Of a stretch of 21,660 bases of DNA, positions 1,973 to 21,632 are shown piece after piece. Numbering within the stretch: position 1 is the first letter of the stretch; each line of letters opens with the position of its first letter. The DNA comes from Clostridia bacterium (GTDB lineage Bacteria; Bacillota_A; Clostridia; Oscillospirales; QAKW01): the NCBI GenBank assembly GCA_017396865.1, contig JAFQKO010000063.1, positions 1-21,660 on the forward strand. Direction: 5' to 3'. The position numbers and the translations under genes were made by a program. The notes under the pieces are model-generated. The model ran no database searches. It was given only the letters and a program-made list of their open reading frames with translations, and was not told the origin of the DNA.

Positions 1973-2893
1973 ATGAAAAAAACAGCATTGTTTTGCATCA
2001 TTTTAACTATATTGAGTCTTTGTGCGTGCGAGAAAAAAGCAGAGCCGCAAACAGAAAAAATGGAGGTTCTTGCTTCTGATTTTGCTACAGAAAAAGAGCA
2101 GGAATTCGTAGATCCGTCAATCGGTGAAGTTGTTGCTTCCTATGATCCGAAGGATTATCAAAATCTTCGTCGATATGGGCTTGAAACCGCTACGGTTGTG
2201 GATACTTCTCCGCAAACGATTGAAGAAATCTTGGCAGTTGTCCATGACGGTGGCTTGATTGTAACGGGAAAAGCATACGGATTGCGTGAAAGTATTGATG
2301 ATCCGCTATATTATGGCACCAAAACTTTATTTGAAGTTGATCATGTTTTTTACGGTGATGTTGAACCGGGAGAAGCAATAATTGTTCAAGAGGACTATCT
2401 TGTAAAAGAAGGAGAAAAAGGTGCGTATTTGTTTAGCTTAACCAAGCATTATTCCTATTTGCAAAATGGCGAGTACGTATTGTTGTTTTTAAGACCGGCG
2501 TCAAAATATGAAGGCTATGCGATTGTTCACAATGCCATTCCGATCGAGGAAGATTACCTGGAGTGGAGCGAGGAATATCTGGAGCGTTTTCTGGATTATT
2601 TCCGTGGAGATAAAACTCTTTTTGATATCCCGGAGACAACGGATGCTACAGTCGGAGGCAGTCCGGTTCGTATGTATTCGCCCGGATGGCCGAAACGAGA
2701 GATTTCAAATGAAGAATTAATTGCAGAAATGCAGGATAATCTGTTGTTTTACTTGGCAACCGAAATGAAAATAAAAATCTGGCCGACACGCCACGTTGAT
2801 TATGCCGGCGACCATTGCGGCCGAACAAAGAGCTCTCTCAAAAAGTGGCAAGAATATGAGGCCTTTGAAGCCTACCGTAAGGAACTTGAATGA
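1973..2893 (+). CDS. Predicted lipoprotein A of a tandem paralogous pair, unknown function
   Basis: This 306-residue protein begins with a lipoprotein signal peptide: two lysines, a hydrophobic stretch and a lipobox ending LCAC with Cys19 as the modified residue. It should be anchored outside the cytoplasmic membrane. The middle part (about 80-175) is rich in beta-strand patterns, and the C-terminal part contains EWSEEYLERFLDYFRGD, REISNEE, MKIKIWP and HCGRTK, all shared with the downstream paralog. No family is recognised. A weak G-rich ribosome-binding site (TGGGGG, 1961-1966) precedes the ATG, and a consensus promoter lies just upstream. The coding sequence is visibly more AT-rich than the core genes around it, which hints at an accessory origin. 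Confidence 0.8.
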   Translation: MKKTALFCIILTILSLCACEKKAEPQTEKMEVLASDFATEKEQEFVDPSIGEVVASYDPKDYQNLRRYGLETATVVDTSPQTIEEILAVVHDGGLIVTGKAYGLRESIDDPLYYGTKTLFEVDHVFYGDVEPGEAIIVQEDYLVKEGEKGAYLFSLTKHYSYLQNGEYVLLFLRPASKYEGYAIVHNAIPIEEDYLEWSEEYLERFLDYFRGDKTLFDIPETTDATVGGSPVRMYSPGWPKREISNEELIAEMQDNLLFYLATEMKIKIWPTRHVDYAGDHCGRTKSSLKKWQEYEAFEAYRKELE

Positions 2894-3831
2894 AAGTAAC
2901 AGTATTATTATTTATCGTTTTAACACTTCTCGGTCTTTGCGGCTGCCAAGCGAATAAACCGCAAGCAGAAGGAAGCCCTGATGTTTTGACTGCTCCGAAC
3001 TTTCCGAACGAAAAGGAGCAGGAGGGGGTTATAATGGACGCGGTGCAAGCTGTTGGCGGAACGGCTGTTCCCGCTTATGATCCAAAGGACTATGCTGATC
3101 TTCCGACACGAACCAACACGACGGCTATATTGAGCGATACCACACCGAAAACAACGGCGCAACTGCAAGAGCAGCTTGGCACAAGCGGGCTGATTGTTTC
3201 GGGGTATGCAACGGGGAACCGTATCAGTTACGATGAGGACGGTGCTTTTTATACCAAAGCGCAGTTTATAATTGATCGTGTTTTTCTCGGCTCTGTTTCG
3301 CCTGGCACAACCATCACGGTCAGCGAAGGTTACGTGGTGCGTGAAAATAAGAAAGAAACCTTTATCTATGCTTATGATCCCGAGCATTCGTATTTGCAGA
3401 ATGATGAATACGTATTGCTGATTGCAAAGCCCTCTAAGCTTGCTCCCGGCTGCTATACGCCGATCCATAACCCGCTGCCGATCGCCACCGATTGCGCCGA
3501 ATGGAGCGAGGAATATTTGGATCGCTTGCTGGATTATTTCCGCGGAGATCCCTCCACCTATGTTCGGCCGCAGGATGAGGTTTATACGGAAAACGGATAT
3601 TTAATCAAGGAGGAGGCACCGGATTGGCCGCGGCGCGAAATTTCAAACGAGGAAATGATTGCTGAGCTGCAGGATAATCTGCTGATCTATCTGGCAACCG
3701 AGTTGAGAATTAAGATTTGGCCGACCGAGCATATCAACTATGTGGATGAGCATTGCGGTCGAACGAAGCACAATATGCAGCGCTGGCAACTGCCGGAGAG
3801 CCAACTTTATCGCTACGGTTATGATATTTAA
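2890..3831 (+). CDS. Predicted lipoprotein B, paralog of lipoprotein A
   Basis: The 313-residue protein has a signal peptide with a LCGC lipobox (Cys19) and the same overall plan as the preceding protein. Shared landmarks are SYLQN-EYVLL, EWSEEYL-R-LDYFRGD, WP-REISNEE, QDNLL-YLATE, IKIWPTEH and HCGRTK near the C-terminus. Conservation is strongest in the last 130 residues and weak in the first 70. The start codon overlaps the upstream stop as ATGA, which points to translational coupling and equal production. Function is unknown; tandem duplication of a secreted lipoprotein suggests a pair that acts together or has diverged in ligand. The 3' half appears more GC-rich than the 5' half. Confidence 0.8.
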   Translation: MKVTVLLFIVLTLLGLCGCQANKPQAEGSPDVLTAPNFPNEKEQEGVIMDAVQAVGGTAVPAYDPKDYADLPTRTNTTAILSDTTPKTTAQLQEQLGTSGLIVSGYATGNRISYDEDGAFYTKAQFIIDRVFLGSVSPGTTITVSEGYVVRENKKETFIYAYDPEHSYLQNDEYVLLIAKPSKLAPGCYTPIHNPLPIATDCAEWSEEYLDRLLDYFRGDPSTYVRPQDEVYTENGYLIKEEAPDWPRREISNEEMIAELQDNLLIYLATELRIKIWPTEHINYVDEHCGRTKHNMQRWQLPESQLYRYGYDI

Positions 3832-17223: not shown

Positions 17224-18339
17224 ATGATCTATCTGGATAACAGTGCAACAACCCGCCCCTATGACGCGGTTGCGGCGCTGATGGCGGAGGAGCAGCTCAA
17301 GCATTTTGCCAACGCCTCCGCATTATACCGCCCCGCCTTGGATGCGGAGGATGGCATTTTGGCTGCCAAGCGGGAGATCGCCGCGGTGCTGAAATGTACC
17401 CCCGATGAGGTGTATCTCACGAGCGGCGGCACCTATTCCAATAACCTGGCGGTGTTCGGCAGTGTGGAAGCCCGCCGTCGGATGGGGAACCGTGTGGTGC
17501 TCTCTGCGGTGGAGCATCCCAGCATCGAGGCCTGCGGCGCGGTGCTGGAGGAGCGGGGCTATGAGGTTGTTTATGCCGCGCCCGATGCCGAGAGCTTCGA
17601 GGCGGCCATCAATGAAAAAACCGTTCTGGTGGCGGTGATGATGGTCAATAATGAGACCGGTCAGCGCCTGCCCGTGGAGCAGATCGCAGGGATGATCCGC
17701 CGCAAAAAGGCGCCTGCCCATTTTCATATCGACGGCGTGCAGGCCTTCGGCAAGCTCCCTACCTCGGTGGCGGCGCTGAAATGCGATAGCTTTTCCATCT
17801 CGGCCCATAAGCTGAAGGGGCCGAAGGGGATCGGCGCACTGTATCTGAAAAAAGGGGTGCGGCTGAAAAATATCCTCTTTGGCGGGGAGCAGGAAAAGGG
17901 GATGATCCCCGGTACGTATAATAGCCCCGCAGCAGCAGGCTTCGGCTTGGCGGTGCAGCTTTATAAAAAAGAGAATCATGCGCATTTTGAGGCGCTGCGG
18001 GCCCGATTTTTGGAGCGGGCAAAGGCGCTGCCCTTTTTACAGATCAATTCCCCTGCCGACGGTGTGCCCTATATCCTGAACGTTTCCTGCATGGGCTATC
18101 TCGGCGAGAATGTGCTGCATTTTCTGGAGGAGAAGGAGATCTACGTATCTCAGGGCTCGGCCTGCTCCTCTAAAAAAGCGCGCAGCAGCTCGGTGCTGGC
18201 GCGAATGGGCAAGAATGAGCAAACGGTGATGGGCGCTTTGCGCATCAGCTTCGGGATTGAAAATACGCTCGAAGAGGTGGATGCCTTGATGGATGCGCTG
18301 GCGCTGGTCCCCGAAAAAATTCAAAAACGGTATAGATAA
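17224..18339 (+). CDS. NifS/IscS-like cysteine desulfurase (probable sulfur donor to ThiI)
   Basis: The 371-residue PLP enzyme shows IYLDNSATT at the start, His98 in AVEHPS, MMVNNETG, the cofactor lysine Lys196 in SAHKLKGPKG and the catalytic loop GSACSSKK with Cys314. It strips sulfur from cysteine, leaving alanine, and carries it as a persulfide. The gene sits immediately before thiI, the same order as the NifZ-ThiI pair of Bacillus subtilis, which makes 4-thiouridine in tRNA; this suggests a dedicated tRNA-thiolation role rather than general Fe-S assembly, and no IscU-like scaffold gene is nearby. The usual TSGGTE-NN motif has Tyr71 in place of Glu. The ribosome-binding site is weak (GGAAAG). 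Confidence 0.9.
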   Translation: MIYLDNSATTRPYDAVAALMAEEQLKHFANASALYRPALDAEDGILAAKREIAAVLKCTPDEVYLTSGGTYSNNLAVFGSVEARRRMGNRVVLSAVEHPSIEACGAVLEERGYEVVYAAPDAESFEAAINEKTVLVAVMMVNNETGQRLPVEQIAGMIRRKKAPAHFHIDGVQAFGKLPTSVAALKCDSFSISAHKLKGPKGIGALYLKKGVRLKNILFGGEQEKGMIPGTYNSPAAAGFGLAVQLYKKENHAHFEALRARFLERAKALPFLQINSPADGVPYILNVSCMGYLGENVLHFLEEKEIYVSQGSACSSKKARSSSVLARMGKNEQTVMGALRISFGIENTLEEVDALMDALALVPEKIQKRYR

Positions 18340-18490
18340 AGGAAGGATAAGTTTGAAACAGGTTTCAAACTTATAGATTTAACGCCGATTTTCTCGCCGT
18401 TTACACGGCAACCGAAAATCATGGCACTTATGACCATTCCTTCATGGTTCGTTTGTGCTTGATGTAAAATGAAAGGAGTGGTCATAAAAT
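18340..18490 (+). promoter_or_regulatory. Structured leader of thiI with sequestered ribosome-binding site
   Basis: Three stems can be drawn. Stem 1: TAAGTTTGAAAC (18348-18359) with GTTTCAAACTTA (18362-18373), perfect. Stem 2: GCC-GATTTTC (from 18384) with GAAAATC-AT-GGC (to 18425), with an inner CCGT/ACGG closed by TTAC. Stem 3: TTATGACCATTCCTT (18428-18442) with AAGGAGTGGTCATAA (18473-18487), 15 bp with one wobble, which covers the AAGGAG site of thiI. No known riboswitch motif is recognised (in particular no thiamine-box CTGAGA). The region could also be a dispersed intergenic repeat. Confidence 0.55.
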
Positions 18491-19657
18491 ATGATGGAAC
18501 AAATGATTTTGGCAAAATGCGGCGAGATCGTATTGAAGGGCTTGAACCGCAGCCATTTCGATCAGATCCTCTTGAAGAATTTAAAGGATTCTTTGAAGGA
18601 TCTGGGCGAATTCGAAATTACGCTGGCGCAGTCTACGGTGTACGTACGCGCCACCGACGGCGCCGATATGGACGAGGCCTTTGAGCGCACCTGTAGGGTG
18701 TTTGGCTTTGCGGCGGTCTGCCGTGCCTACGTATGTGAAAAGAATATGGAGTCGATCAGCGCCTTGGCGCGGGAGTGCCTCACCGATACCATGGAGGAGA
18801 TCCGTACCTTCAAGGTGGAGGCCAAGCGCAGCGATAAGCGGTTCCCCCTTAAATCGCCCGAGATCTGCCGCGAGATCGGCGCGGTGCTGCTCTCTCGCTT
18901 CCCCCATCTGCGGGTAAACGTCCATAATCCCGACGTCACCGTAACGGTGGAGGTGCGGGATTTCGGCGCCTATATCCATGCGGTACGGGTGCAGGGTGCG
19001 GGCGGTATGCCCTACGGCTCCAACGGCCGTGCCTGCCTGCTGCTTTCGGGCGGGATCGATAGTCCTGTGGCGGGCTACATGATGGCCAAGCGCGGCGTGA
19101 AGCTGACCGGTGTGCATTTCTTCAGCCCGCCCTATACCGGCGAGCGTGCCAAGCAAAAGGTGCTCACCCTCGCCGAGGAGCTGCGTGCCTATTGCCCCGG
19201 GATGAAGGTGCAGGTGGTGCATTTCACCAAGGTGCAGGAGGCGATCCGCGATTGCTGCAACGAGGAGTATTTCACCGTGATCATGCGGCGGTTTATGATG
19301 CGGGTCGCCCGCGAGATCGCAAGAAATACCCGTAGCGGCGCTTTGATTACGGGCGAAAGCCTCGGTCAGGTCGCCAGCCAGACGATGGATGCCCTGCGGC
19401 TGACCGATAGCGTCACCGATGCGTTGGTGCTGCGTCCCCTGATCGGGATGGATAAGGAGGAGATCGTGCAGATCTCCCGTAAGATCGGCACCTTTGAAAC
19501 CTCGATCCAGCCCTATGAGGATTGCTGCACCGTCTTTACCCCCAAGCATCCCAAAACCAAACCAACCCTCAGCGATATCGAGCGGGAGGAAGCCAAGCTG
19601 GATATTGAGGCCTTGGTGGCGGATGCGTTGGCAAATGTTGAAATAGTAGAGGCATAA
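18491..19657 (+). CDS. thiI: tRNA 4-thiouridine synthetase ThiI (no rhodanese domain)
   Basis: The 388-residue protein has an N-terminal ferredoxin-like part, a THUMP RNA-binding domain (about 60-165) and a PP-loop ATPase with SGGIDSPVAG (186-195), followed by GESLGQVASQT and the C-terminal YEDCCTVFTPKHPKTKP. It adenylates U8 of tRNA and inserts sulfur to make 4-thiouridine, a near-UV sensor, and may contribute to thiamine thiazole synthesis. The rhodanese domain of the E. coli enzyme is missing, as in Bacillus, where the partner cysteine desulfurase passes sulfur directly; that partner is encoded just upstream. ATG at 18491 is used with AAGGAG at 18473-18478, a rather long 12-base gap, and that site is buried in a predicted stem. 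Confidence 0.95.
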   Translation: MMEQMILAKCGEIVLKGLNRSHFDQILLKNLKDSLKDLGEFEITLAQSTVYVRATDGADMDEAFERTCRVFGFAAVCRAYVCEKNMESISALARECLTDTMEEIRTFKVEAKRSDKRFPLKSPEICREIGAVLLSRFPHLRVNVHNPDVTVTVEVRDFGAYIHAVRVQGAGGMPYGSNGRACLLLSGGIDSPVAGYMMAKRGVKLTGVHFFSPPYTGERAKQKVLTLAEELRAYCPGMKVQVVHFTKVQEAIRDCCNEEYFTVIMRRFMMRVAREIARNTRSGALITGESLGQVASQTMDALRLTDSVTDALVLRPLIGMDKEEIVQISRKIGTFETSIQPYEDCCTVFTPKHPKTKPTLSDIEREEAKLDIEALVADALANVEIVEA

Positions 19658-19698
19658 ACTTGAAAATCAATTTCAAGCTTAGAAAGGAATGGTTATAA
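19656..19698 (+). promoter_or_regulatory. Inverted repeat and ribosome-binding region copied from the thiI leader pattern
   Basis: CTTGAAA (19659-19665) and TTTCAAG (19671-19677) form a dyad with a TTGAAA...TTTCAA core like that of stem 1 upstream of thiI. AAGGAATGGTTATAA (19684-19698) matches 13 of 15 bases of the thiI ribosome-binding region at 18473-18487. The start codon follows at 19701. Confidence 0.45.
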
Positions 19699-19700
19699 AA

Positions 19701-21465: not shown

Positions 21466-21541
21466 GCGGGTGTAGCTCATCTGGTAGAGCGCGACCTTGC
21501 CAAGGTCGAGGTAGCGAGTTCGAGCCTCGTCACCCGCTCCA
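21466..21541 (+). tRNA. tRNA-Gly (anticodon GCC), copy 1
   Basis: The 76-base cloverleaf has acceptor arms GCGGGTG/CACCCGC, D arm GCTC-ATCTGGTA-GAGC, anticodon stem CGACC/GGTCG with loop TTGCCAA (anticodon GCC), T loop TTCGAGC, discriminator T and an encoded CCA end. It reads GGC and GGU glycine codons. Confidence 0.96.
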
Positions 21542-21556
21542 AAATTTAATATCATT

Positions 21557-21632
21557 GCGGGTGTAGCTCATCTGGTAGAGCGCGACCTTGCCAAGGTCGA
21601 GGTAGCGAGTTCGAGCCTCGTCACCCGCTCCA
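21557..21632 (+). tRNA. tRNA-Gly (anticodon GCC), copy 2
   Basis: This 76-base gene is identical to the first copy, including the encoded CCA, and lies 15 bp after it in the same transcript (period 91 bp). The tandem copies probably raise the dose of this glycine acceptor. What follows, to the end of the window, is AT-rich without a gene. Confidence 0.96.

Follow-up and report, generated by a model that had tools for sequence, protein, structure and literature searches.

The window analysed here is a 21,660-nt stretch of DNA in which a gene for a NifS/IscS-like cysteine desulfurase is followed on the same strand by thiI, encoding tRNA uracil 4-sulfurtransferase (Table 1). A gap of 151 nt lies between the desulfurase stop codon (18337-18339) and the start of the thiI open reading frame (ORF) at 18491. 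The true start of thiI is probably the second ATG, at 18494; relatives begin the gene with A/GTGGAACA, which matches this second ATG. An earlier note, made from the sequence alone, had described the gap as three stems, the last of them a 15-bp stem with one wobble that hides the thiI ribosome-binding site. Both descriptions hold on paper. Positions 18347-18487 form a left hairpin (S1), a middle hairpin, and a right hairpin (S3), and RNA folding of 18300-18520 gives -59.1 kcal/mol, compared with -45.1 +/- 4.4 kcal/mol for 200 dinucleotide shuffles (z = -3.2), none of which folded as low. S1 has 13 bp and arms that are 100% complementary, while the 15-nt arms of S3 are 93% complementary, the wobble being their single departure. 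Within S3 lies the Shine-Dalgarno (SD) sequence AAAGGAG, with a predicted mean unpaired probability of 0.048. The middle hairpin, which folds at about 18383-18425 and which we refer to as the core, consists of GCC/GGC with an AU bulge, an AU-rich stem, an internal loop UC/AACC, and a GC stem. A search of Rfam over this part of the window returned nothing at the gathering threshold; at E values up to 5 it returned only XIST_intron and AaHKsRNA69, both implausible and far under their gathering scores.

Table 1. Positions and supporting matches of features at the thiI locus of the window.
Feature	Position	Strand	Sequence	Support
NifS/IscS-like cysteine desulfurase, 5' neighbor of thiI	17224..18339	+		best match TIGR03402, 284.8 bits, under the equivalog cut-off
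Putative native (old) thiI Shine-Dalgarno	18339..18346	+	AAGGAAGG	in the alignment, opposite the AAGGAAG/AAGGATG that stands immediately 5' of thiI in each of the four closest relatives
Left hairpin S1	18347..18374	+	ATAAGTTTGAAAC-AG-GTTTCAAACTTAT	
Core (middle) hairpin of the family	18381..18425	+		covariance model R1, 53.4 bits, E 9.1e-13, the window being one of the 11 training sequences of R1; BLAST
S3 left arm	18428..18442	+	TTATGACCATTCCTT	
Putative replacement Shine-Dalgarno	18472-18478	+	AAAGGAG	same kind of box ends other SD-type copies
S3 right arm	18473..18487	+	AAGGAGTGGTCATAA	
thiI (tRNA uracil 4-sulfurtransferase)	18491..19657	+		TIGR00342, 381.9 bits, cut-off 264.5
Second, coreless unit before the next gene	19659..19700	+	CTTGAAA..TTTCAAG (hairpin, 19659-19677); AAAGGAATGGTTATAAAA (right-end box, 19683-19700)	

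Other repeats occur elsewhere in the window. Two identical tandem tRNA genes (21466-21538 and 21557-21629) start 91 nt apart and give an 80-nt perfect repeat, and two 38-nt terminator-like hairpins (1466-1503 and 1790-1827) are 95% alike and 324 nt apart. Two tandem ORFs (1973-2893 and 2890-3831) have common DNA repeats of 144 and 98 nt with 72-73% identity, and are thus probably paralogous.

The leader is absent from thiI in relatives. We compared the best 80 of 589 relatives found by a ThiI scan of species genomes. In the four closest (L001-L004; 78-84% protein identity), the desulfurase and thiI are separated by only 3, 16, 1, and 3 nt, and AAGGAAG or AAGGATG stands immediately 5' of thiI. 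The aligning sequence of the window is now about 145 nt 5' of the start codon. As read from this alignment, the window insert sits between the native thiI SD and the start codon, and would bring thiI a replacement SD that is predicted to be sequestered. None of the 80 loci (best 80 of 589) has a core in front of thiI (model R2, E <= 0.01), the sequence available before thiI being shorter than 300 nt in 3 of the 80 (81 nt in the shortest). The sole R2 match among these loci is weak and lies 2.7 kb upstream of the gene (L011).

Copies of the core are instead dispersed through the genomes of relatives, where, and not in the window's own genome, they were counted. A BLAST search with the leader against the genomes of the four closest relatives found copies of the middle hairpin in two, G003 (four copies) and G001 (two copies), at a best E of 0.0015; the remaining matches in these two, and all matches in G002 and G004, looked like chance. 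The G003 match at E 0.0015 also gives the window core support that does not depend on a model. The copies in G001 and G003 follow a common plan of S1 hairpin, core, and S3 hairpin, and some are in tandem. A further genome, G005, has seven dispersed copies. Of 12 genomes from the same family, 6 matched model R1 (11 sequences, including the window) at E <= 0.1. In a sample of 394 genomes from the order (Oscillospirales, as we infer from names in the list of thiI relatives), model R2 (18 sequences; E <= 0.01) finds the core in 42, at 1 to 15 copies per genome, although the weakest single matches (E near 0.002) may be chance. Tandem arrays are frequent: at least 14 genomes have neighboring cores 108-180 nt apart (R2 coordinates). 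A full-length model, R3, built solely from seven SD-type copies including the window, recovered 34 of 394 genomes of the order at E <= 1e-5, and its matches included copies of the -10 type (both types are described below). Across the class, 6 of 391 genomes matched at E <= 0.001, four of which were already among the earlier matches. The named carriers L001-L003 are bins from goat and roe deer rectum. A scan of viral sequences with a 14-base core pattern gave at least 120 stretches; a pattern this short probably matches by chance, and we therefore make no claim on phages.

Element units are about 110-180 nt long and, by eye, contain no conserved ORF. Most copies have the order hairpin-core-hairpin, while some are without S1 or S3. 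Over the element in 32 other loci, Rfam again gave nothing above the gathering score. One copy has a sub-threshold Gut-1 match beside it on the opposite strand (L161, 1560-1630; 32.1 of 50 bits), which is absent from 13 other loci checked.

In the alignments, the family core covaries as a structured motif. Among 45 cores from 37 sources (alignment A5), 12 of 15 pairs show two-sided changes and 97.2% of cells pair. Covariation scores 0.515, a value reached by 0 of 500 shuffles (shuffled alignments, 0.122), and the score falls to 0.020-0.069 when partners are slid by 1-3 columns. A larger set of 82 cores, 68 of them distinct (A6), gives the same picture (12 of 15 pairs two-sided, 97.3% pairing; 0.466 versus 0.109, 0 of 500 shuffles). 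Fitting to the model structure biases both alignments in favor of that structure. An unfitted alignment (A1) of 11 mostly close sequences has two-sided changes in only two pairs, and 8 of 500 shuffles score as high. Further pair types do not rise above shuffles (222 of 500 in A5, 163 of 500 in A6), and the innermost pair of helix 3 is often unpaired in both fitted alignments. By eye, the internal loop UC/AACC and the 3' AU bulge are almost invariant. The earlier note had pointed to covariation among thiI leaders as a check on its proposal of a regulatory RNA; covariation is indeed present, in a repeat family before unrelated genes and not in thiI leaders.

Family copies mostly precede genes. 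When ORFs are called mechanically, 55 of 81 distinct copies fall in none. Among these, copy and nearest downstream ORF share a strand in 44 of 53 cases, compared with 28 of 52 (28:24) for the upstream ORF; these strand counts leave out the 26 copies lying in mechanical ORFs, and at least one of the nine opposite-strand calls is wrong, as the copy in L304 is followed by ricT in sense. An NCBIfam scan covered 30 downstream proteins of the 81 copies and assigned no family to 10 of these proteins (E <= 1e-10). The proteins above curated cut-offs (mnmA, fmt, valS, pyrG, lexA, uvrA, ilvE, ricT, and TIGR03960) have no common function, and weaker matches include recD2-like and gyrB/parE-like proteins. 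A tRNA-modification regulon (thiI, mnmA and, by eye, queH) was considered and dropped because the other downstream targets are unrelated. The alternative that the earlier note had offered, in which the gap is a dispersed repeat and carries the ribosome-binding site by chance, is supported: the note had named unrelated copies of the segment as evidence against its own proposal, and such copies are present in relatives' genomes. Two further placements were seen by eye. In L145 (G047:C39, 1501-1544), a copy in sense appears to break a coding sequence, the reading frames differing on either side; in L132 and L135 (G002), copies adjoin a tRNA-like T-arm, and part of the repeat there looks like a tRNA gene's 3' end.

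The outer hairpins flanking the core are a property of the family and often carry an expression signal. A hairpin scoring at least 10 stands directly 5' of the core in 60 of 79 distinct copies, versus 4 of 78 at a distance of 700 nt, and directly 3' of it in 53 of 78, versus 1 of 74. Of 76 copies, 44 have an upstream TATAAT, 33 have a downstream one, and 26 have both, while control offsets give 0-3 of 73-74. TATAAT/ATTATA arms form both inverted and direct repeats. A second type of copy, to which the one at thiI in the window belongs, ends in an SD followed by a start codon (9 of 76 copies, window included); controls gave 0, the control being lenient since its SD strings were drawn from the copies themselves. 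Copies whose S3 hides an SD are a minority (the same 9 of 76); the core covaries across the family. Three copies (L149, L157, and L301) end, by eye, in a terminator-like hairpin with a U-tract. Read together, the sequences show a family whose copies are dispersed, often tandem, mostly in sense, and placed before unrelated genes.

In 3.3 Mb of DNA, the right-end box AAAGGARTRGTYATA is confined to SD-type elements and window position 19683. On the opposite strand it matches three times, in each case the left arm of S3 in one of these copies. Nine distinct sense copies of the element continue past the box, and all nine have ATG or GTG 0-4 nt further on. In the window, the box AAAGGARTGGTYATAAAA of the thiI leader reappears with zero mismatches before the next gene (19683-19700), within the coreless unit of Table 1. 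This unit, which is not seen at the corresponding place in L001-L004 (read from the alignment), is probably a remnant or minimal form of the element. The inner part of the window's S1, TTGAAAC..GTTTCAA, is common to other SD-type copies. A conserved leader peptide was considered for these copies, in which, by eye, the SD is followed by TTG AAA CAA and further codons; it was rejected because stop positions differ, the window having its stop after seven codons.

Orthologous sites with and without the element are found at thiI, at ychF, and at a radical-SAM gene. At the radical-SAM site (TIGR03960), G018 (L400) reads TGCTATAAT, then 112 nt of element, then ACTATC. In G059 (L402), whose neighboring protein is 98% identical to that of G018, TGCTATAAT and ACTATC are adjacent in the continuous sequence TGCTATAATACTATC. 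As the insert has a TATAAT-like sequence at its end as well, its exact boundary is ambiguous, and automatic alignment places the L402 box at the insert's right end. The unoccupied G059 site could have arisen by deletion between two TATAAT-like repeats. Automatic alignment did not delimit a clean target duplication, and no parent insertion sequence was found.

At the ychF site, the core is present in G080 only and absent from 27 other orthologous loci. The gene ends in FNV in 28 of 28 loci and in FRFNV in 23 of 28. In G080, the left arm of S1 is the gene end itself (18 coding nt plus the first stop base), and the right arm is a perfect 19-bp inverted copy of it. The left arm codes for a conserved protein terminus, which places the making, or the selection, of the inverted copy with the element. 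Other G080 copies have an S1 reaching into coding ends (L298 twice, and L304), and in L303 both S1 arms are inside coding sequence. In the window, the outer ATAAG of S1 looks native, with CTTAT as its inverted copy. Among copies of the -10 type and of the window type, S1 and S3 are largely shared from copy to copy, so that little of them derives from the target (TATAAT, or ATAAG/CTTAT for the window). The tandem cores of L304 (G080:C49, 2135-2179 and 2026-2070, both on the minus strand) form a repeated unit that includes the upstream gene's last codons, which suggests that the array was duplicated locally and not inserted twice. This also weakens tandem integration of a circular intermediate, a route that we had considered.

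We consider it very probable that the 151-nt thiI leader arose by insertion of one copy of a three-hairpin element that is dispersed and non-autonomous. Against this reading count the copies without S1 or S3, the S1 arms of L303 inside coding sequence, the pepQ position common to two close species (described below), and the sense bias and conserved internal loop, which would suit a regulatory RNA equally. How such an element might move can be sketched from its ends. It would spread by using expression signals, or strands exposed near those signals, as sites; insertion would leave an inverted copy of the left flank; and a substitute signal, provided by the right end, would keep the downstream gene working. 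More tentatively, and with a probability well below even, the family may represent a class of mobile hairpins whose insertion sites are specifically expression signals (a -10 box, a terminator U-tract, or the interval separating an SD from its start codon). An inserting element would duplicate the adjoining target as an inverted repeat, thereby making its own hairpin, and would close with a restored signal that lets the host gene survive. The UC/AACC loop would then be a handle for a mover protein or ribonucleoprotein, and the thiI leader would be the SD-type form. The active form of the core could be single-stranded DNA or RNA. At thiI, the substitute SD would be held in the predicted 15-bp hairpin, which ribosomes, a chaperone, or temperature might open; given this predicted position, initiation at thiI is probably rarer than it was before the insertion if nothing opens the hairpin. 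We infer lower or conditional ThiI synthesis as a result of the insertion, and any regulation of thiI may be a by-product of it.

A different account of the same family is that of a true cis-regulatory RNA, with an aptamer-like core and S3 as expression platform, that spreads easily and has thiI as a recent regulon member. The covarying core, its nearly invariant internal loop, and the sense bias toward downstream ORFs (44/53, against 28:24 upstream, by mechanical calls) are all as expected of such a family, as are S3 hairpins that hide an SD (9/76), resemble terminators (L149, L157, and L301, by eye), or overlap promoters (most copies). We nevertheless judge it unlikely. The downstream genes are functionally unrelated, genomes hold tandem copies, and most S3 hairpins are neither SD-hiding nor evidently terminator-like. 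Decay points the same way: the pepQ site is filled in two close species (L426 of G018, 1360-1405; L425 of G041, 2671-2716, minus strand), but the core has decayed in G018 (26.7 versus 44.1 bits) though the genes are 98% identical. Far less probable still, and in our view hardly credible, is the device specific to thiI that the earlier note proposed, be it a riboswitch, ThiI autoregulation, a tRNA sensor, or a thermometer. The thiI leader of the window does resemble RNA thermometers and SD-sequestering riboswitches in that a stable S3 is predicted to cover the SD. Unlike them, the structure is not conserved at thiI, where none of the 80 loci (best 80 of 589) has the core and the four nearest relatives have a junction of 1-16 nt; the same core stands ahead of unrelated genes without SD hiding, and no Rfam family matches above its gathering score.

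Mobilization of REP-like hairpins by a Y1 (RAYT) transposase is another route to a dispersed family. REP/BIME elements are hairpins with an internal mismatch, intergenic and clustered. The thiI-leader family shares these features, being a multi-copy, often tandem, intergenic hairpin with an internal loop, and the high-copy genomes G104, G113, and G274 have one or two Y1 matches. Yet the Y1 transposase, the sole transposase family tested, is not enriched among carriers (10 of 28 tested, out of 42, versus 11 of 24 non-carriers) and is absent from eight other high-copy genomes (G018, G041, G059, G080, G101, G258, G305, and G379). The family also differs from REP/BIME elements with RAYT in its larger, three-hairpin unit. 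We regard this route as very improbable.

The inserted element belongs to a known broad kind of repeat. Like a MITE, it is short, has no mover gene inside, occurs in many dispersed copies, and is present or absent at orthologous sites. A review describes Correia elements, a MITE of Neisseria, as short, non-autonomous, many-copy repeats that mostly map just 5' of genes, have sigma70-like promoters, and give transcripts that RNase III cuts at the terminal repeats (PMC10969869). By that account, the thiI-leader family is similar in being short, non-autonomous, multi-copy, mostly before genes, and equipped with promoter-like boxes, but differs in its covarying core with a conserved internal loop between two further hairpins, in the direct and inverted signal copies at its ends, in having some SDs, and in its hosts. 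A survey of 50 genomes describes, in its main text, structured multi-copy motifs (MRSC) that were judged selfish, with inconsistent orientation and nearby transposases as class marks (PMC11109978). The thiI-leader family is likewise structured and multi-copy, but is mostly in sense and has no mover found (Y1 tested). One of these motifs, MRSC-65-2, has a UYCCGG repeat where the thiI-leader family has UC/AACC (PMC11109978). Compared by main-text description only, the family may be some unnamed MRSC. We found no description of it in the literature searched (including PMC11109978, PMC8632094, PMC8040213, and PMC10969869, with supplements and most subscription journals outside the scope). The family is thus MITE-like and akin to MRSC, with no Rfam match and no published description found within that scope. 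It is unusual for its kind in its three hairpins, its conserved internal loop, the signals at its ends, and an inverted flank copy at one well-checked site.

Taken gene by gene, such repeats are mistakable for riboswitches, as nearly happened at thiI. Strong covariation together with SD sequestration is not proof of a gene-specific regulatory RNA. If true, the insertion rule (a site at a -10 box, SD, or U-tract; an inverted flank; a rebuilt signal) would point to a mobilization mechanism beyond any mover found, and it would be checkable by comparative genomes alone. Such repeats change the promoters and ribosome-binding sites of many genes, some of them essential, in little-studied Clostridia.
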